Shown: positions 6,728-23,841, counted from the first letter of the stretch. The stretch is DNA of 49,039 nt from an uncultured Bacilli bacterium (GCA_947628585.1 CANRAL010000005.1:1-49039); one strand, 5' to 3'. A program made the numbers and translations. The notes: generated from the sequence alone by a model not told the origin.

Positions 6728-6752
6728 GAAAAAAAGCCCTTGGCTTTTTTCC
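6728..6752 (-). terminator. Terminator of the bacteriocin operon
   Basis: On the minus strand AAAAAAGCC-AAG-GGCTTTTTTT forms a nine-pair stem with a T-run, directly after the stop of the last precursor peptide. It separates the bacteriocin operon from yqfC. Confidence 0.85.
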
Positions 6753-6914
6753 TTAACAATAATCTCGGACTAATGATCTTCTAATTACTGTTCCAATAGT
6801 TTGACCTATTTTTATTATAGTAGTAAACGCACGGCTAAGAGCATTTATAAAAGTGGCATTAATTGTAACTGCACCACCAATAACTTGTAAAAGTTCTTTA
6901 TTTTTTAAACTCAT
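6753..6914 (-). CDS. Double-glycine bacteriocin precursor, peptide A
   Basis: A 53-residue peptide with leader MSLKNKELLQVIGG, ending in the Gly-Gly site used by C39 peptidases (Leu at -12 and -7 and Ile at -4 style spacing). The predicted mature peptide is 39 residues, AVTINATFINALSRAF onward, cationic at the C-terminus (RRSLVRDYC), with a GQTIG sequence, a GxxxG motif of the sort that mediates helix pairing in class IIb two-peptide bacteriocins. A strong AGGAGGT site precedes the ATG. It is the last gene of the operon headed by the exporter at 9523. I recognise the architecture, not the peptide itself. Only one Cys is present, so no internal disulfide. Confidence 0.82.
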   Translation of the reverse strand: MSLKNKELLQVIGGAVTINATFINALSRAFTTIIKIGQTIGTVIRRSLVRDYC

Positions 6915-6922
6915 TTTACCTC

Positions 6923-7063
6923 CTAACTATTACATTTTCCAGGATTAAATAATCCATCCAATGTTCCTAATATAAGAAGGCCAATTCCTCCGAGTACACT
7001 CCATAATAAAAAATTAGCACCTCCATTTATTTCTTTAAGTTCGTTATTGTTTAAATTTTTCAT
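6923..7063 (-). CDS. Double-glycine bacteriocin precursor, peptide B
   Basis: A 46-residue peptide with leader MKNLNNNELKEINGG, a textbook double-glycine leader (ELKEINGG). The mature part of 31 residues begins ANFLLWSVLGG, is very hydrophobic, contains a GTLDG GxxxG motif, and ends NPGKCNS. Its TAG stop lies inside the ribosome site of peptide A and its own start is 4 nt from the previous stop, so the two peptides should be made together. The pair of short, hydrophobic, GxxxG-bearing peptides fits a class IIb two-component bacteriocin. Activity is inferred. Confidence 0.84.
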   Translation of the reverse strand: MKNLNNNELKEINGGANFLLWSVLGGIGLLILGTLDGLFNPGKCNS

Positions 7064-7067
7064 TACC

Positions 7068-7475
7068 TCACTCCTTTATCAATTTAATAACTTTCTTAAA
7101 TATCTTTTCTTTATTATAATAAAAACTTAATTTTACTATTTGATTTTCGGGGTAAATTTTGTTTATCCCTATTGTATAAATTTGATAATTGGTTTTAGAA
7201 TATTCATCATAATTTAAATCGCTTATATCAATTATAATATAACTTTCGTATTCATTATCTATTTTTAATTGTGCCTCTTTTAAAGTATCAGAGTAAAGAA
7301 CAGGCACAGTAACTAAAAGATAATTTCCATCACTAACACTACTTAAATCAACCTTATCATACAAATCTTTATTAAGAATATAAATTGAAAGAAAAACAAT
7401 TATTGCAAATATTACTAAAAGGCTACGATGGTTATGATAAGGTATATGTAAAAGTCTTTGATAGGAATTAATCAT
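7068..7475 (-). CDS. Small membrane-anchored accessory protein of bacteriocin operon
   Basis: A 135-residue protein with one N-terminal membrane helix (about residues 18-34) after a short basic cytoplasmic tail, then an extracytoplasmic beta-rich domain. The end (IVKLSFYYNKEKIFKKVIKLIKE) resembles the last strand and helix of HlyD-like bacteriocin secretion accessory proteins, but the long coiled-coil hairpin and lipoyl-like parts are missing, since family members are several hundred residues long. It lies between the exporter (2-nt gap) and peptide B, so it could be a minimal adaptor or an immunity protein. No immunity family is recognised. Confidence 0.65.
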   Translation of the reverse strand: MINSYQRLLHIPYHNHRSLLVIFAIIVFLSIYILNKDLYDKVDLSSVSDGNYLLVTVPVLYSDTLKEAQLKIDNEYESYIIIDISDLNYDEYSKTNYQIYTIGINKIYPENQIVKLSFYYNKEKIFKKVIKLIKE

Positions 7476-7477
7476 TT

Positions 7478-9523
7478 TTATCCCTCGAAATTAATAACTT
7501 TATCAAATAAATCATCTTCTTTCTTATGAGTTATATAAATAATGGTTTTATTATTAAAATAACTATTTATATTTTTAATAATTTCTCTTTCCATTTTTTC
7601 ATCAACTTCACTTAATACCTCATCTAAGATAATTATTTTAGCGTCTTTTAATAAAGAACGGGCTAAAATAATCCGTTGTTTTTCTCCTCCCGAAATTTCG
7701 TTCAAATTATTACTAATAACCGTATCATAATGAAAAGGCTTTTTTTCAACTATTTTATCTACTTTACATAATTCCATAATTTTTCCAAACTTATTCTCTT
7801 CAATATTTCGTCCTAGTAAAATATTTTCTCTTATACTATTGGTAAAAATATCTTCATTTTGCGAAACATAAAGAACATTTTCTCTAATAGTTCGCAAAGA
7901 ATAATCTTTTAAATTTTTTTCGCCAATAGTAACCTCACCAGTATAATTTTCTATATCCTTATTTAATATTTTACACATTGTACTTTTACCACAGCCACTT
8001 TTACCTTTAAACATTATTTTTTCGCCTGGGTTGATACTAAAATTTATTTTTTGTAATGTTAAATCATAATCATTATAGCTATAATTTAAATTTTTAACAT
8101 TAATATCATATTTACTAAATAAACTTCGTTTCCCCATTTTCTCAGTTGGGATATTAATAAAATCACTAATTTTGGAAAAAGTTGCTTTAAAGAAATTATA
8201 TTTAGGTAAAATATCAATTAAATTTTTTAAAGGATTTAGAAAAAAGTTCATCAACGAATTAAAAGTAATTAAGCTCGTTATAGACAAAGAATCATGAATT
8301 ATTAAAAATAAACCAACGGTATTTGTTATAAAAAAACCAAATTCATTAATCCAATTTTTAATATTTTCCGTTTTATTTAAATAGTCATTTAAAGTATAAC
8401 TATCATATAAAAAAGTAGATAATTTTTCTTCGATGTTTTTTAAAATATATGCTGTTAAATTTAAATTTTTAATAGTTGAATAAGTATTAATGCTTTCTAA
8501 TAGATAACTATTAAATTCTTCTTCTAAAGTTATATTTTGATAAGCTTTACGATAAATTGTTTTGGTAGTTATAAAGCCCGTCGTAAAATAAATGACAATA
8601 AGGAAGAAAAGAACTAAGAACATTTTGCCACTTATAGATATCAAAATGGGAATGGAGACTAAAGCTAAAAGAAAATCCAAAAGGAAATTAATAAATATCT
8701 CCGTATATAGGGTTTTGATATTATTTAATTCCCCTACTCGAGAAATAATCTCGGCACTGCTCCTACTACCAATATTCTGTGAAGGGATTTTATACATATG
8801 ATTCAAGAAATCCGATAGTAACAAAACATCAATATTTTTATTAAGATGATTTTCTAAATAATTTCTTAAATAACTAAAAATGCATTTAAAAATCGTAATT
8901 ATGCCAAAAACTAAAACAATGAGTTTTACATAATCTAAATAGGTATTATCCGTTATTGATTCTAATCCGATTTTAAAATAATAACTGCTTAAAATACTTA
9001 AAATAGTAAGTATAATACTGACTAAAACAATTTGGCCAAAAAGTTTACGTTCGCTATTAATTATACTCCAAAAGACTTCAAAAATATTTTTACCCTTTTC
9101 TAAATATAGAATTTTTTCTTTGGGATAAAACATAAGTAATATTTGAGTAAAATTTTTTAAAAATTCTTGACGACTTAAAGATATTTTTCCTTTCGCGGGA
9201 TCCATTAACGTTACTTTAGTTTTAGTTATACTATAAATAACTACAAAATGATTTAAACCATTTTTATATTTCATATGAGCTATCGCCGGCAAAAAAATGT
9301 TATGATCATCTAATGATTCAATTTTAACACCTTTCGTTTCAAAGCCATATTTTTGGGCAGCATTTAATATATTATAAGCTGTCGTTCCATCTTTAGTTGT
9401 TCTTGTATCAATTCGAATTCTTTCGATTGGTACATAACCTTCATAATATTTTATAATGCTACTTAAACAACATACTCCACAATCTTTTAAATCATGTTGA
9501 CGAGTAACAAATACTTTAAGCAT
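7478..9523 (-). CDS. Peptidase-containing ABC exporter for bacteriocin (C39 family)
   Basis: A 681-residue bifunctional transporter that cleaves double-glycine leaders and exports the mature peptides. The N-terminal C39 peptidase (1-135) has the catalytic QHDLKDCG block (Gln9, Cys15), His in LNHFVV (near 92) and Asp in LMDPAKG (near 106). A six-helix ABC membrane domain (about 160-440) follows, then the ATPase with Walker A GKSGCGKST (near 505), signature ISGGEKQRI, Walker B IIILDEVLSEVD and a His switch in YITHK. All catalytic residues are intact. The strong GGGAGG site fixes the start. It heads an operon with a small membrane protein and two cognate GG-leader peptides. Confidence 0.93.
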   Translation of the reverse strand: MLKVFVTRQHDLKDCGVCCLSSIIKYYEGYVPIERIRIDTRTTKDGTTAYNILNAAQKYGFETKGVKIESLDDHNIFLPAIAHMKYKNGLNHFVVIYSITKTKVTLMDPAKGKISLSRQEFLKNFTQILLMFYPKEKILYLEKGKNIFEVFWSIINSERKLFGQIVLVSIILTILSILSSYYFKIGLESITDNTYLDYVKLIVLVFGIITIFKCIFSYLRNYLENHLNKNIDVLLLSDFLNHMYKIPSQNIGSRSSAEIISRVGELNNIKTLYTEIFINFLLDFLLALVSIPILISISGKMFLVLFFLIVIYFTTGFITTKTIYRKAYQNITLEEEFNSYLLESINTYSTIKNLNLTAYILKNIEEKLSTFLYDSYTLNDYLNKTENIKNWINEFGFFITNTVGLFLIIHDSLSITSLITFNSLMNFFLNPLKNLIDILPKYNFFKATFSKISDFINIPTEKMGKRSLFSKYDINVKNLNYSYNDYDLTLQKINFSINPGEKIMFKGKSGCGKSTMCKILNKDIENYTGEVTIGEKNLKDYSLRTIRENVLYVSQNEDIFTNSIRENILLGRNIEENKFGKIMELCKVDKIVEKKPFHYDTVISNNLNEISGGEKQRIILARSLLKDAKIIILDEVLSEVDEKMEREIIKNINSYFNNKTIIYITHKKEDDLFDKVINFEG

Positions 9524-9540
9524 ACTATCCTCCCTTCATC

Positions 9541-9577
9541 TATATATCTTACGAATTTTTAGTTATTTCCTTTTTTT
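9541..9577. repeat. 37-bp repeat, copy A, a degraded copy of the xerD 3' end
   Basis: Matches 23805-23841 at 36 of 37 positions in the same orientation (core TTCGTAAGATATATA read on the minus strand). The copy at 23 kb contains the last codons and stop of xerD, and weaker similarity continues another ~20 nt into xerD, so copy A looks like a relic of the xerD 3' end. Each copy lies about 20 nt upstream of an ABC-transporter gene. It contains no good sigma-A promoter. Confidence 0.75.
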
Positions 9578-11994: not shown

Positions 11995-13572
11995 CTAGGA
12001 AAATAATACTTCTCCCTTAAAAATCAACTTGATGCAATCAAATACATTCATCTTCCGTAATCGAGCAGTTTTGATAATGCTCATTGTATTACCAAATCTT
12101 ATGGCTCCTTCAGTACTTCTAAAACCACCAGATACTTTAGTTTTTCCTTTTATCATTCGTAGTGCTCGTTCCATAAAATTATTATCATATGGTATTGAAA
12201 AATCATATATATAAAATAATATTGAACTTTTATATTTCTTTAATCTTTTTAAAAGTGTATTTGATTTTTCTTGCCAATATTTTGAACAAATATCATTATT
12301 CTCTAATACTCCTTGATTTAAAATATTATCATATTCTTGTTCAATTAATTTTATTTCTTCTTCTGTAAATGCATTTCTTCCAAACTTTGATAATATTTTT
12401 CTGTTACGTTCTATTCTTAATAATAATTGAAATATTTTTTCTGGCCATCTTATCTCATAAATATTTTGTATCTGTTCATTGCAATATCTTCCAATATGAA
12501 TAATACAATCTTGATTATTTGTGCCATATTTGAAAATACCTACTTCATGATCCGATATGATTGTTCCATAATACTTATTTAAAATATTATCTTCTCTTAT
12601 TGGAGCATCACCTTTTTTATGATGGTATTTATATAGAACATTATTTTTGTTCCCATATCCTCGATAGTAGCTTTCCCTTCCATTCTCACTTGTTACCGTT
12701 TCATCTGTATGGGTATATTTTCCGTTTAGAATATTGACCATTATATTATTTAAGGTTTCCGTTGTTTTAAAAGAAAAATCTTTATAAATATTATCTATTG
12801 TTCCTTGTGATAAATTTACTATGTTATTTGTTAAATCGCTTAAAATATCTTGTATTTTAATATAACTTAAAGAATAATAATTACCTAACATAACTACTAA
12901 TGTTTTTATACTATCATTATATATTACATCACTGTAATATTTTTTTGACATCTTTTCTTGATAATTTTCACCGTATATAAAAATATGCTTTTCTATAATA
13001 GTTTCCATAGATATTCCTATACTATATTTAATTTTACTTTTTCTTTTGGAATTACCTTTGATATAATGTTTAATTTCTACAACTTTTAAATTATTATTTT
13101 TTATTTTTTGTTCTAATTGTTCTTTTGTTAAAGTTGTTCCCTTATGGTTTTGCTGACCACCACTTGAACGATTTGTCTTTTCACGATGATTATAAATATT
13201 AGCTCCTGATTTTGCTTTTCTAATTTCTTTACTTGTTGGAATAGATGAATTAGTACTATCTTTACCAATTTGATTAGTTAATTTATCTATAACATAATTT
13301 TTATCATTATCTTCATTTCTAGAAATAAGTTCTAATTTTAATCTATCTATTTCTTTTAAGGCATTACTCAATTCTTCTTTTAATTTGATATTTTCTCTTT
13401 TATATGGGCTTGTTGCCTTATTTACTTCTGATAGAATTCTTTCTTTTGAATATTTTAGTTCATATTTTAATGTATCGATTTCCAATTTTTGATTATTAAT
13501 AATTTTATTTAGTTTTTCAACTTTATTAAATTCTTCTTCATACATTTTATAAATATCTTTATTCTTTAACAT
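11995..13572 (-). CDS. tnpC: IS66-family transposase (TnpC type)
   Basis: A 525-residue transposase from the ATG at 13572, which has AGGAGT 7 nt upstream; an in-frame extension to 13596 lacks a ribosome site. The N-terminal part is a coiled coil (about 10-100). A linker with NSSIPTSKEIRKAKS, NRSSGGQQNHKGTTL follows, the sequence typical of IS66 proteins before the zinc-like region, which here lacks the usual four cysteines. The DDE domain has THTDETV (first Asp), SDHEVGIFKYG (second Asp), and the late NNFMERALRMIKGKTKVSGGFRSTEGA block with the catalytic Glu. It appears functional. Confidence 0.93.
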   Translation of the reverse strand: MLKNKDIYKMYEEEFNKVEKLNKIINNQKLEIDTLKYELKYSKERILSEVNKATSPYKRENIKLKEELSNALKEIDRLKLELISRNEDNDKNYVIDKLTNQIGKDSTNSSIPTSKEIRKAKSGANIYNHREKTNRSSGGQQNHKGTTLTKEQLEQKIKNNNLKVVEIKHYIKGNSKRKSKIKYSIGISMETIIEKHIFIYGENYQEKMSKKYYSDVIYNDSIKTLVVMLGNYYSLSYIKIQDILSDLTNNIVNLSQGTIDNIYKDFSFKTTETLNNIMVNILNGKYTHTDETVTSENGRESYYRGYGNKNNVLYKYHHKKGDAPIREDNILNKYYGTIISDHEVGIFKYGTNNQDCIIHIGRYCNEQIQNIYEIRWPEKIFQLLLRIERNRKILSKFGRNAFTEEEIKLIEQEYDNILNQGVLENNDICSKYWQEKSNTLLKRLKKYKSSILFYIYDFSIPYDNNFMERALRMIKGKTKVSGGFRSTEGAIRFGNTMSIIKTARLRKMNVFDCIKLIFKGEVLFS

Positions 13573-13587
13573 ATATTCAACTCCTAC

Positions 13588-13661
13588 TGTGAACATTAAT
13601 ATTTTAACATAAAAAAGCGAGATAATAAATATCTATTTGTTCACAATAGGATTATCTCGCT
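13588..13661 (-). promoter_or_regulatory. Right-end hairpin and start-site complementarity of the IS
   Basis: AGCGAGATAAT (13616-13626) pairs with its complement at 13651-13661 and, on the minus strand, is followed by T6: a terminator facing inward to the transposase. The apical sequence TGTGAACA (13638-13645 read minus) is exactly complementary to TGTTCACA (13588-13595) lying just upstream of the AGGAGT site. Read-through RNA could therefore fold against the start region, as in IS10 and other elements protected from outside transcription. Confidence 0.5.
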
Positions 13662-13805: not shown

Positions 13806-15224
13806 TTATAAAGATTCAATTTCTCCCATATTTTGTTCATTTAAATTATCTATACCTAAAGCCTCGACATTATCCTTAGTTAGGGTATCATTTAAATTTT
13901 CCTCATTTTCTTGAGTATTTAATGAATCAGGGTTATCAATACTTTCATTTGAACTATTTGGTCCATTAGTAATACTATTAACTTTTCCAATAAAAGCATT
14001 TTTTAATTCTACATCATTTTCATCAATATCATCTTCAACATCAATAACTCTAAATATTTCATCAATACTTGTTAGGCCTTCAATTACTTTATCCAAGCCA
14101 TCTTGTAATAAAGATGATACATCACTTTCATCGTAAACTAAATGTCTTAATTCTGGTTTTGGAGAGTTATTTACTATAGCATCTCTTACGCCTTGATTAA
14201 TTATTAAAACTTCATGGATAGCCAAACGTCCAGAATAACCGTGAATACATTCACTACAACCATTAGGACTATATATTTTAGCCACATCTTTACCTAATGC
14301 TTGCTTAAATAAAACTTTTTCGTAAGGAGTTGTTTCTCTTTCAATTCGACATTTAGGACATAGTCTTTTTACAAGTCTTTGCGAAATAATCCCTGTTAAA
14401 GCACTACCTAATAAATATCTTTCTACATCCATATCCAATAATCTTTCAATTGTTGTTAAAGAGTTATTGGTGTGGATGGTTGATAATACTAAATGCCCTG
14501 TTATTGATGCCCTAACAGCTATTCGAGCCGTTTCATTATCTCTTATTTCCCCGATCATTATAATATCCGGGTCTTGTCTTAAAATACTTCTTAATGTATT
14601 ACCAAAAGTTAAACCAATTTCACTCATAACTTGGACTTGATTAATACCAGGTATTTTCATTTCAACAGGGTCTTCTACTGTAATAATATTTCGTTCAGTG
14701 GTATTTAATATTTGTAATGCAGCATATACAGTGGTTGATTTCCCACTACCAGTTGCTCCTGCTACCATAATAATTCCATTAGGCAAACTAATTAATTTTT
14801 TTATCTTTTCTAAATTCTTTTCCGTTAATCCTAAATTTTCTAAACCTTCGCTACTCATTTTATAATTTAAAATCCGAATAACTATTTTTTCTCCATCAAC
14901 TATAGGTAAACTTGATACCCGAAGGTCTAAATCTATTTCATCCGTTAAATTTTTAATAGCTCCATCTTGAGGAAGACGAGTTTCCGTTATATTCATACCA
15001 CTAATAATTTTTATTCTAGTAAGTAAATTTTTCTTAACAAAATTAGGAACTTTAGCATACTCTAATAATTCCCCATCAATTCTAATGCGGACATTTAAAG
15101 CTTCTTCTGTTGGATCGAAATGAATATCTGAGGCATTATGATTAATTGCATCAATAATCATTTCATTAACTATGTCAACTACTGGCTTATTTTCATAATC
15201 GAAGTCTCTAAACATGAGTATCAC
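13806..15224 (-). CDS. GspE/PilB-family secretion/assembly ATPase
   Basis: Hexameric cytoplasmic ATPase that drives type II secretion or type IV pilus assembly. The 472-residue protein begins directly with the N2 domain (ASDIHFDP, RIRIDGELLEY; no N1 domain), then Walker A GATGSGKSTT (near 155), an Asp box (IITVEDPVE), Walker B IIMIGEIRDNETA and His box (GHLVLSTIHTN). A tetracysteine zinc site is seen as CPKC (near 290) and CSEC (near 325). A C-terminal acidic tail of about 85 residues (Asn/Asp/Glu rich) is unusual. The GTG at 15224 has AAAGGA at good spacing; an ATG at 15215 is the alternative. No PilC or pilin gene is adjacent, and the IS lies downstream. Confidence 0.9.
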   Translation of the reverse strand: MILMFRDFDYENKPVVDIVNEMIIDAINHNASDIHFDPTEEALNVRIRIDGELLEYAKVPNFVKKNLLTRIKIISGMNITETRLPQDGAIKNLTDEIDLDLRVSSLPIVDGEKIVIRILNYKMSSEGLENLGLTEKNLEKIKKLISLPNGIIMVAGATGSGKSTTVYAALQILNTTERNIITVEDPVEMKIPGINQVQVMSEIGLTFGNTLRSILRQDPDIIMIGEIRDNETARIAVRASITGHLVLSTIHTNNSLTTIERLLDMDVERYLLGSALTGIISQRLVKRLCPKCRIERETTPYEKVLFKQALGKDVAKIYSPNGCSECIHGYSGRLAIHEVLIINQGVRDAIVNNSPKPELRHLVYDESDVSSLLQDGLDKVIEGLTSIDEIFRVIDVEDDIDENDVELKNAFIGKVNSITNGPNSSNESIDNPDSLNTQENEENLNDTLTKDNVEALGIDNLNEQNMGEIESL

Positions 15225-21511: not shown

Positions 21512-22906
21512 TTAAATATTTTTAATATTTCTTTTTTTAAAGACTATTAAACTACCAATTAACATAATTAAAAAATAAATTATACAAGTAATAATAGCTC
21601 TTTCAATACTTATATTATATGGCGATGATAAACCAAATAAATAATAAGAAAAATCCCAATTAGGTGTTACAAAAAATTTTAAAAAAGCTAACTTTGGATA
21701 AGTAATAAAACTATTTATAATTGAACTAGCTAGATATCCTAAAAAAGTTATTGTAATACTAAATGATGTACTTAAAATAATCGTTGATAAACTAAAACTT
21801 AACATTAGTAATAAAATTAGCATTGGTAATTTACTACTAAAGATTAAAAAATAATAACTAATAGCATTTAAAGTATAATATTTTCCCAAATCTACCGAAT
21901 AACTGACAAAAGGAATACTTAAAGAGCTATAACCATATAATAACCCACCTATAATAAGCTCGGATAAAAATAAGAATATAGCTATAAAAGGTAACATTAA
22001 AAGAGCGGCAATTAATTTAGCAAAATAAATTTTCCATCGTTCAAAAGGTAATGTTAATAAATTTTTTATTGTTCCTTTATTAAATTCTTCACTAATTATA
22101 CCCCCAGCTATCATAATAATAAATACTAGAATAATAATTTCACATTCACTATAAAGATTTAGAAAAACCATTCTAATAGTACTATTTTCTTTAGTATCGG
22201 TATTATTATCTAGAATATACTTATTTTCATAATAATTTTTAACTATTTCCTTATCTTCCTCATTAGGATTTTTTTCATAATTTATAATGGTATTTAAATC
22301 CCTTACCATTTCACTATAAGCATTATATAGATAATCATTACTTTTAAGTTCGGGATGGTTTAAAACATAATTATAAAGTTCAATTTTTCGATTTTCCATT
22401 TCTTTATTAATAGCTAATTCTTCACTATTCATATTAATTTCATTATTTTCATATTCCTTTAATAAATTTTTACTTTCATCTAACTTTTCATTTATAAAAT
22501 ATGCTAAATCATTATTTTTTATTTTTTCTTCAAAATTATTTAAAAGATTTAAATAACTATCGACGTTAGAATCATGATAAAAAAGAGCATTATAATAGTT
22601 ATAAGCTAAAGAATAATAATCATTTAAAATCATATCTTCTTGCCAAGCATGATGATAATCTTTTAATAAACTATAAACTCTTATTTCCGTATTTAAATTT
22701 ATAGTATCACTATTTGTAGAATCTATTTCTTTTAAACTATCTTCAGCACTATTTATATAAATTTGATAATTTTTAAACATAAGTGTATTTAAATTTTGAT
22801 ATAAAATATTAACTAAAAAAAGAAACAAAAAACCAATTATTAAAGTAATAAAAGTACTTTTTTTATGAAAAATTTTATAAATTTCCGCTTTAATTAAGTT
22901 AATCAA
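21512..22906 (-). CDS. ABC-2 type transporter permease
   Basis: A 464-residue permease with one N-terminal helix (about 18-38), a large extracytoplasmic Asp/Glu/Asn-rich domain of about 210 residues, then five helices including IAGGIISEEFNKGTIKNLLTLPFERWKIYFAKL, typical of the ABC-2/BcrB-like class. The TTG start has AGGAGG 8 nt upstream inside the end of the ATPase gene (8-nt overlap). The pair resembles transporters for peptide-antibiotic self-protection or lipid export; the substrate is unknown. Confidence 0.88.
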   Translation of the reverse strand: MINLIKAEIYKIFHKKSTFITLIIGFLFLFLVNILYQNLNTLMFKNYQIYINSAEDSLKEIDSTNSDTINLNTEIRVYSLLKDYHHAWQEDMILNDYYSLAYNYYNALFYHDSNVDSYLNLLNNFEEKIKNNDLAYFINEKLDESKNLLKEYENNEINMNSEELAINKEMENRKIELYNYVLNHPELKSNDYLYNAYSEMVRDLNTIINYEKNPNEEDKEIVKNYYENKYILDNNTDTKENSTIRMVFLNLYSECEIIILVFIIMIAGGIISEEFNKGTIKNLLTLPFERWKIYFAKLIAALLMLPFIAIFLFLSELIIGGLLYGYSSLSIPFVSYSVDLGKYYTLNAISYYFLIFSSKLPMLILLLMLSFSLSTIILSTSFSITITFLGYLASSIINSFITYPKLAFLKFFVTPNWDFSYYLFGLSSPYNISIERAIITCIIYFLIMLIGSLIVFKKRNIKNI

Positions 22907-23789
22907 TTTTATTACCTCCTGCTTTAAGTAAAAAAGCTTCTTCTAAAGACATTTCTATTTCTTTTACCTCATATATTAAAACTTTATCTTGGATTAATTT
23001 TTCAATAATCTTAGGTATATTTTCCCTACTCGTTTTTAAAATAAAACTAGTATCGGTAACATTTTCCATATTTTCTATTTTTAAGTTACGCGTATCATTA
23101 ACGCTAAAAGAGTAAATATTATTATTTAAATGCTTTAATTTTTTAACATCATTAGTTTCAATAACCATTCCATTATTTATAATACAAACTTTATTACAAA
23201 AACTTTCTAATTCGGCAAGATTATGACTAGAAATTAATATTCCCATTCCTTCAGCTGCCAATTTTTTTAAAAGATTACGTAAATCTTTAATTCCTTCAGG
23301 ATCTAAGCCATTGGTTGGTTCATCTAAAATTAATAAATTGGGTTTGGCTAATAAACTTCGCGCAATTCCTAATCTTTGGCGCATTCCTAAGGAATACTTA
23401 CTTACTTTATCATTTATCCTATTTTCCAAGCCAACTATTTTTACCACTTCATCAATTCTATCTTTTTTTACATTAGGATACATATTAGCAACCAATTTTA
23501 AATTATCATAACCCGTCAAATACATATAAAACTCGGGATTTTCAACAATTGATCCTACTTTACTAATTGCTTTAACATAATCTTTTTCAATATCATAACC
23601 ATTTATTATAACCTTACCACCATTAATATTTTGTAACCCCAAAATTAATTTAATTGTTGTTGTTTTTCCCGCCCCATTTGGACCAATAAATGCTAAAATG
23701 TCTTTTTCTTCAACTTTTAAATTTACCTTTTTAAGTATTTCTTTTTTTCCTAATCTTTTTTCTAAATCTTGACATTCTAATATAACCAT
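22899..23789 (-). CDS. ABC transporter ATP-binding protein (BcrA/LanF-like)
   Basis: A 296-residue ATPase with Walker A GPNGAGKTTT (near 38), the Q-loop region, signature YSLGMRQRLG, Walker B LLILDEPTNGLDPEG and His switch in SSHNL, then a C-terminal domain of about 80 residues as in BcrA and LanF-type immunity transporters. It partners the overlapping permease gene. The start has GAGGAG upstream. The 37-bp repeat (copy B) sits 16-52 nt upstream of the start, at the end of xerD, and its other copy lies just upstream of the bacteriocin exporter. Confidence 0.9.
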   Translation of the reverse strand: MVILECQDLEKRLGKKEILKKVNLKVEEKDILAFIGPNGAGKTTTIKLILGLQNINGGKVIINGYDIEKDYVKAISKVGSIVENPEFYMYLTGYDNLKLVANMYPNVKKDRIDEVVKIVGLENRINDKVSKYSLGMRQRLGIARSLLAKPNLLILDEPTNGLDPEGIKDLRNLLKKLAAEGMGILISSHNLAELESFCNKVCIINNGMVIETNDVKKLKHLNNNIYSFSVNDTRNLKIENMENVTDTSFILKTSRENIPKIIEKLIQDKVLIYEVKEIEMSLEEAFLLKAGGNKID

Positions 23790-23804
23790 TTTCTTCTCCT
23801 CAAT

Positions 23805-23841
23805 TATATATCTTACGAATTTTTAATTATTTCCTTTTTTT
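23805..23841. repeat. 37-bp repeat, copy B, at the xerD 3' end
   Basis: Partner of 9541-9577 with one mismatch. It includes the last six codons and stop of xerD and the 18 nt after it. The TTCGTAAGATATATA portion resembles one arm plus the central region of Firmicute dif sites, but the second arm is not conserved. Confidence 0.75.

Follow-up and report, generated by a model that had tools for sequence, protein, structure and literature searches.

Streptococci produce bacteriocins that are controlled by competence through the SigX/ComX regulon (PMC4497675, PMC5295010). Here we describe a four-gene operon on the minus strand of a 49,039-nucleotide (nt) stretch of DNA from an uncultured Bacilli bacterium (GCA_947628585.1 CANRAL010000005.1:1-49039; the whole stretch is called the window below), which resembles the streptococcal CibAB system in that a two-peptide, bacteriocin-like system is tied to a competence regulon, and in the role proposed for it, the release of DNA from neighbors. 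The locus differs from CibAB in its lineage, peptides, promoter motif and exporter operon, in being core to an order, and in the co-varying C-terminal cysteines of its peptides. CibAB has a dedicated immunity gene, CibC, and no CibC-like gene was found in the window. We regard it as rather probable that the operon encodes a class IIb-like two-peptide system that is coupled to competence throughout the order, and that this system probably serves to breach neighboring cells during DNA uptake.

Three other systems are close to this locus. In gallocin A (GllA1/GllA2/GIP) the immunity peptide GIP mimics the fold of the bacteriocin (PMC10100652). Gallocin A is also a two-peptide class IIb system with cysteines, and the mimicry by GIP has a parallel in a pepA-like membrane mimic of other genera than that of the window; however, its disulfides are intramolecular and its two peptides are longer, while here mostly one cysteine is present per peptide, which leaves only an inter-peptide or a homodimer bond possible. 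The lactococcin G-beta and cerein 7B families (NF038034, TIGR03949) match many members of the pepB family in the leader and part of the helix, but pepB of the window stays under their cut-offs, has a cysteine-containing tail and is not accompanied by a lactococcin-type immunity gene. Streptococcal ComA-ComB-ComC likewise combines a C39 exporter, an accessory protein (similar here by fold only) and double-glycine (GG) peptides with a linkage to competence; in contrast, the locus described here has no conserved ComD-type kinase, its two peptides are longer, conserved and hydrophobic, and its accessory protein is without hairpin and lipoyl domains.

Gene order and distribution of the operon

The operon consists of the genes of a C39-peptidase ATP-binding cassette (ABC) exporter, an accessory protein of 135 amino acids (P135), pepB and pepA, in this order, and is followed by a terminator-like hairpin (Table 1). 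The original prediction, made from the sequence of the window, had proposed that two unnoticed open reading frames (ORFs) of 53 and 46 codons, here pepA and pepB, end the operon of the exporter and form a two-peptide bacteriocin; P135 (7068-7475, minus strand) and the conserved C-terminal cysteine of each peptide are additions of the present analysis. Gene order and conservation were computed from the genomes compared here, as were the co-variation of cysteines and the sharing of promoters. Both ORFs were present, and the same cassette in the same order, with one or two pepB-pepA (B-A) pairs, was found in 27 of 27 congeners with readable surroundings. The precursors consist of a double-glycine type leader of 14-15 amino acids, ending after GG, and a mature part: MSLKNKELLQVIGG followed by AVTINATFINALSRAFTTIIKIGQTIGTVIRRSLVRDYC in pepA, and MKNLNNNELKEINGG followed by ANFLLWSVLGGIGLLILGTLDGLFNPGKCNS in pepB. 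The leaders, whose lack of conservation would have spoken against the prediction, were conserved. The strong ribosome sites predicted for the small genes correspond to Shine-Dalgarno boxes at 6923-6919 (pepA) and 7076-7071 (pepB) on the minus strand. The predicted closing terminator corresponds to a hairpin and T-run, AAAAAAGCC-AAG-GGCTTTTTT, located 3′ of pepA on the minus strand (6750-6730); a generic consensus terminator scanner did not report this hairpin.

The exporter was detected in 28 of the 30 congeneric species, with 47-77% identity; a full exporter was missing from G025 and G012 (G and L numbers denote genomes and loci). Several congeneric species carry four peptides. A pepA profile search gave matches in 223 of 243 genomes and 141 of 148 genera of the window's family, in 227 of 241 genomes of an order sample, which contained this family only, and in 51 of the 54 genomes of the family in a class sample. 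Outside the family, about 341 genomes of the class gave no convincing match, and two weak 28-position matches in outgroup (f4) genomes were judged to be leader-like chance matches. In about 80 exporter loci the exporter gene, the accessory protein gene and the peptide genes followed in fixed order, with P135 at the same position in nearly all of them, pepB before pepA in nearly all, and rpsU as the next gene downstream of the cassette in many genera, which suggests that the arrangement is ancestral. The exporter was always found beside the same peptide families, and not, as could have refuted the prediction, beside unrelated substrates.

Judged by this distribution, the operon is a near-universal, vertically inherited core trait of the family or order and not a strain-level accessory cluster. 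Hence, the two-peptide architecture, the GG leaders and the GxxxG motifs of the predicted bacteriocin operon stand, while its character as a strain-level cluster does not, given the family- or order-wide core distribution, the promoter in common with comEA/comEC and the lack of an immunity gene in the operon. As weapons, bacteriocins usually have a patchy distribution and are specific to strains, and we know of no earlier case in which a bacteriocin-like system defines an order as part of its core. Here almost all members of an order of uncultured gut Bacilli with small genomes would have inherited a two-peptide system that is wired to DNA uptake.

The exporter relatives in named genomes were mostly from uncultured Bacilli, many of them from rabbit, goat, sheep and other guts, and one was from Candidatus Caccenecus avistercoris, a genus placed by NCBI in Bacilli incertae sedis. 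The order is presumably RF39 of GTDB (family UBA660), which would fit the habitat and the kin. Neither competence nor bacteriocins of RF39 were treated in any paper found in the literature library searched. According to a recent study of the chicken gut, RF39 does not synthesize nucleic acids de novo (PMC13155120). If the organisms belong to RF39, killing coupled to DNA uptake could explain their supply of nucleotides and genes.

Promoter block of the operon and of comEA

The region 5′ of the exporter gene contained a block conserved in the genus and family, A6-8GGAAAT, then about 17-18 nt, a TATATATA-like element and GTGAAGGGAGG. In the genome of the window the same block was present 5′ of a gene pair for an ABC transporter (start at 23789), of comEA-comEC, of a second comEA and of two Rpn-like ORFs, and in other congeners comEA carried it as well. 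The members of this putative regulon were sampled by pattern search. Within species the promoters of the exporter and comEA departed from the consensus alike, for example in G021 and G004, where long stretches of the spacer are shared. The summed similarity of the exporter and comEA promoters of the same genome was 620, compared with 341 ± 21 for permuted pairs (p<5e-5, z about 13, 21 genomes), and in other genera it was 457, compared with 341 ± 19 (p<5e-5, 22 genomes). The similarity of the exporter and ABC transporter promoters gave a z of 8.5, while the control genes gerM, spoIIIAH, yqfC, yqfD, era, dgkA and luxR gave z values from -1.1 to 3.2. The value of 3.2, obtained for spoIIIAH and yqfC, reflects a modest species-level background; in some genomes spoIIIAH and the exporter have an intergenic region in common, which is not the case for yqfC.

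These data suggest that the operon belongs to the competence (DNA-uptake) regulon through a promoter shared with comEA/comEC. The simplest interpretation is that one dedicated transcription factor, probably an alternative sigma with a site that shifts from species to species, recognizes the block, and the matched set of promoters offers a route to this master regulator. The AAGGAAAT element resembles the -35 consensus of B. subtilis sigmaH, a likeness to sigmaH systems that does not extend to the -10 (TATATA, about 18 nt on), and the assignment to sigmaH was rejected. In other Gram-positive bacteria sigmaH controls com genes, as in S. aureus (PMC3486894) and L. sakei (PMC3364868); the text of the L. 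sakei study offers no consensus for comparison.

The second comEA-like gene is located on contig C4 of G000 (L362:821-1480, minus strand) and the gene after it encodes a secreted protein that contains a CIEPG-type motif. The Rpn/transposase-like ORFs with the block are at C11:26663-26697 (L298) and C44:1676-1706 (L371) of G000, with a partial tandem repeat of the block in L298.

The peptides, the exporter and the accessory protein

In family-wide alignments G37, G41 and C53 of pepA were invariant, as were G37 and C44 of pepB, and G33 and P41 of pepB were almost invariant; the invariance of the cysteines holds for the aligned sets, from which cysteine-less groups were left out. Thus, the single GxxxG motif predicted for each mature peptide, which is of the helix-pairing type, was conserved in both families. 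The ratio of nonsynonymous to synonymous substitution rates (dN/dS) was 0-0.25 for both peptides in close pairs, which indicates that pepA and pepB are under purifying selection.

Each mature peptide generally contains a single cysteine near its C-terminal end. Among 160 usable B-A pairs this tail cysteine was present in both peptides of 138 pairs and in neither peptide of 22, and no pair was discordant. The underlying script tally of 161 distinct pairs gave 131 with two tail cysteines, 22 with none, 5 that were discordant and 3 that were left unscored; inspection by eye showed that the 5 discordant and 2 of the unscored pairs were misread by the regular expression, which met a second GxxxG-like match in the tail or no match, and had cysteine in both, while the L057 pair, in which pepA is joined to a third peptide, was excluded. 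The cysteine-less pairs trace to few events, in one subclade of the window's genus, in the Caccenecus-type clade, whose members with and without the cysteines are intermixed in the exporter tree, and in two paralogous first pairs (L045, L048). The joint loss of the tail cysteines suggests that a disulfide between them ties pepA to pepB, and the approximately 160 natural pairs could serve for probing such a disulfide-tied class IIb design. This explanation is weakened by the small number of independent losses and by pepB of the genus subclade, which keeps a cysteine inside GxFCG that only some of the pepA partners match. Two B-A pairs are present in L043-L046, L048, L052 and L053, where B of the second pair has its cysteine inside GxFCG and none in the tail; in a related single-pair group (L050, L051, L055, L056) the pepA cysteine lies inside its own GxxxG (DIGCQ[IV]G).

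When the precursors were compared with bacteriocin models, the leader of pepB scored over the cut-off of TIGR01847 (17.6 bits, cut-off 15.7), and of the 37 members of the pepB family 23 matched TIGR03949 and 19 matched lactococcin G-beta at E<=0.01. Sequence searches of the PDB with both peptide profiles gave at most weak, leader-level similarity, and a K1-lyase_C match of pepA, seen in 1 of 45 members and under the cut-off, was taken as chance.

The exporter contains complete Pfam domains (Peptidase_C39, 129 bits; ABC_membrane, 102; ABC_tran, 99) and scored 364 bits with TIGR01193, under the model cut-off of 524. Its catalytic residues, predicted to be intact, were invariant across 19 congeners: the C39 motif DCG (C15), H92, D108, Walker A, the signature, Walker B and H666. 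The AlphaFold2 model of P135, based on a 59-sequence alignment (predicted local distance difference test score 87.8), has one transmembrane helix followed by a small beta-barrel. Foldseek gave no match to this model at E<=0.001. In a VIA-align search the first 22 rows were all membrane-fusion or periplasmic adaptor proteins with Z of 6.3-8.3, although a Z near 8 may mirror a common arrangement of structure; the best matches were MacA (8.3) and BesA (8.0), and CusB, AcrA, MexA, EmrA and Spr0693 were also present. Unrelated barrels had Z of 6.0 or less and ranked below these rows. According to the model, P135 probably represents a membrane-fusion protein in minimal form, in which the lipoyl and hairpin domains are missing. 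A role of P135 as an immunity protein was set aside, given that its modeled helix and barrel resemble membrane-fusion proteins.

Table 1. Positions of the operon, its promoter elements and associated features (window coordinates, or locus numbers)
Feature	Position	Strand	Description
C39-peptidase ABC exporter	7478..9523	-	681 amino acids; predicted to cleave the GG leaders and export both peptides
Accessory protein P135	7068..7475	-	135 amino acids; one transmembrane helix and small beta-barrel (model)
pepB	6923..7063	-	46 amino acids; double-glycine peptide, mature part 31 amino acids, GxxxG, C-terminal cysteine (NPGKCNS)
pepA	6753..6914	-	53 amino acids; double-glycine peptide, mature part 39 amino acids, GQTIG, C-terminal cysteine (RDYC)
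Rho-independent terminator-like hairpin closing the operon	6730..6750	-	read from the sequence
Upstream promoter element AAAAAAAGGAAAT, -35-like, of the exporter operon	9565..9577	-	conserved 5′ of the exporter in genus and family
-10-like TATATA, within GTAAGATATATAG	9541..9546	-	same -10 region at comEA, comEA2 and ABC transporter of the window genome
Exporter Shine-Dalgarno GAAGGGAGG	9529..9537	-	conserved family-wide
Second copy of the promoter block	23804..23841	-	about 14 nt before the ABC transporter start
ABC transporter ATPase, same putative regulon	22899..23789	-	among NCBIfam models closest to TIGR03740 (lantibiotic protection ATPase), with 222 bits against a cut-off of 310
ABC-2 type permease, partner of the ATPase	21512..22906	-	Pfam ABC2_membrane_2, 68.6 bits
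pepA-mimic loci	L181, L185, L189, L198, L203, L205, L207-L209, L213, L215, L216, L218, L224, L227, L229, L233, L235, L237-L241		

Possible self-protection and possible roles of the peptide pair

Classical class IIb loci carry an immunity gene. In 23 loci of other genera an ORF of 46-59 amino acids overlaps the pepA stop codon by 7-23 nt; its pepA-like product is leaderless, has a strong hydrophobic helix and ends with GxxxG(T/S/N), usually followed by arginine. No such ORF turned up when 355 control windows were searched in the same way. This translationally coupled mimic of pepA is a candidate immunity protein. The ABC transporter that has the promoter block in the genome of the window was present in 29 of 30 congeners, and its involvement in self-protection is possible.

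In the mechanism that we infer for the favored, competence-coupled two-peptide system, a dedicated factor, probably an alternative sigma, would switch on the operon together with comEA-comEC, the C39 domain would remove the two leaders by cleavage behind GG, and the peptides would leave the cell through the ABC exporter and its small membrane-fusion partner. The two helices would pair via GxxxG, probably tied by the disulfide between the C-terminal cysteines, and the pair would insert into the membranes of neighbors, whose DNA would become available for uptake. An antibacterial action of pepA and pepB is plausible.

Several observations weigh against this explanation. Neither peptide of the window reaches the cut-off of a curated whole-family bacteriocin model (for pepB, 17.2 versus 21.5 with TIGR03949 and 15.8 versus 37 with NF038034; a Bacteriocin_IIc match of 18.7 was under the cut-off of 27.1). 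There is no immunity gene in the operon of the window, where the terminator follows pepA without another ORF in between, and the pepA mimic is absent from the window's genus; core, single-copy conservation is also unusual for bacteriocins. With regard to regulation, the comEA promoter is without the motif in the Caccenecus-type clade, the motif occurs within 200 nt of the ABC transporter in only 15 of 28 congeners, and the pilus ATPase gene gspE of the window has an ordinary sigmaA-type promoter, which implies that the motif is not the general promoter. The layout of exporter, accessory protein and GG peptides fits a ComABC pheromone system as well, and the antibacterial action, expression and secretion of the peptides are predictions. 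In anatomy and regulation the system corresponds to the competence-controlled bacteriocins of streptococci, but it was not filed as class IIb because the operon has no immunity gene, the curated model scores are not reached and the activity is predicted.

If the favored explanation is true, natural transformability of these lineages is predicted, which matters for their culturing and genetics. A more far-reaching version, which we propose only tentatively, is that the whole order, which would be nucleotide-dependent, lives partly by armed DNA scavenging, with a universal, competence-switched, disulfide-linked two-peptide weapon that opens the cells of neighbors, and with ComEA/ComEC taking up the DNA of neighbors as food and genes.

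The main alternative explanation, which appears unlikely, is that the exporter, the small membrane-fusion protein and the GG peptides are an analogue of ComA-ComB-ComC, in which pepA, pepB or both would be the signal for DNA uptake and the shared promoter would form an autoinduction loop. This would agree with the layout, which is the same as that of ComAB plus a GG peptide, with the core position of the cassette in the order, with the promoter being the same as that of comEA, and with isolated pepB-family members that touch ComC models. However, a search directed at this one receptor class found no conserved ComD/AgrC-type kinase among the congeners, in most of which PF14501 matches were weak (22-26 bits), with clear matches only in G025, which is without the exporter, and G023. 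The two peptides are unlike, with co-varying cysteines and long hydrophobic mature parts that are conserved across genera, while pheromones usually diverge between species, and the pepA mimic and the protection-type ABC transporter suit a toxin better. In G025, with a genome completeness of 90%, the motif accompanies comEC, and no other genome of the genus encodes so clear a ComD/AgrC-like kinase.

It is less likely still that the pair acts on the envelope of the producer or its siblings during competence, by local permeabilization, sibling lysis or as an accessory of the uptake pore. The universal retention without a recognizable immunity gene in the window's genus, the competence promoter and the prepilin-like and pilus-ATPase genes that adjoin the cassette in some species are consistent with such a role, while the leader-dependent export and the protection-type genes, for the pepA mimic or the ABC transporter, point to a defense against peptide from outside. 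A link to sporulation could be considered, as the operon of the window lies between spoIIIAH and yqfC/yqfD, and the neighborhood of SpoIIIAH, YqfC, YqfD and GerM genes is common to several congeners; this is very improbable, because near-complete genomes that have no YqfD retain pepA (G065, 98% complete; G085, 97%; G157, 96%; and others) and the flanks change between clades, and pepA is also more widespread than YqfD and the promoter is common to comEA but not to spoIIIAH or yqfC. There is equally little to recommend an ordinary accessory class IIb cluster, which the GG leaders, GxxxG motifs and dedicated exporter would fit, but not the order-wide core distribution, the competence promoter and the operon without an immunity gene.

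Some loci contain further genes near the peptides. A third double-glycine peptide, which is poorly conserved (e.g. MQRMETSELLECSGGGLFGTI...), is often encoded 5′ of pepB (L118, L120, L122, L126, L130, L137, L146, L148 and others). A prepilin-like ORF (GFIAISLIYSFFLVFL), of which a tested fragment had no Pfam match, directly follows pepA in L161, L165, L170, L171, L173, L175, L180, L194 and L252. In the window gspE, which encodes the PilB/ComGA-type pilus ATPase, is located at 13806-15224, with a transposase-like ORF (11995-13596) between it and the cassette, and in L039 a pilus ATPase gene lies directly after pepA.

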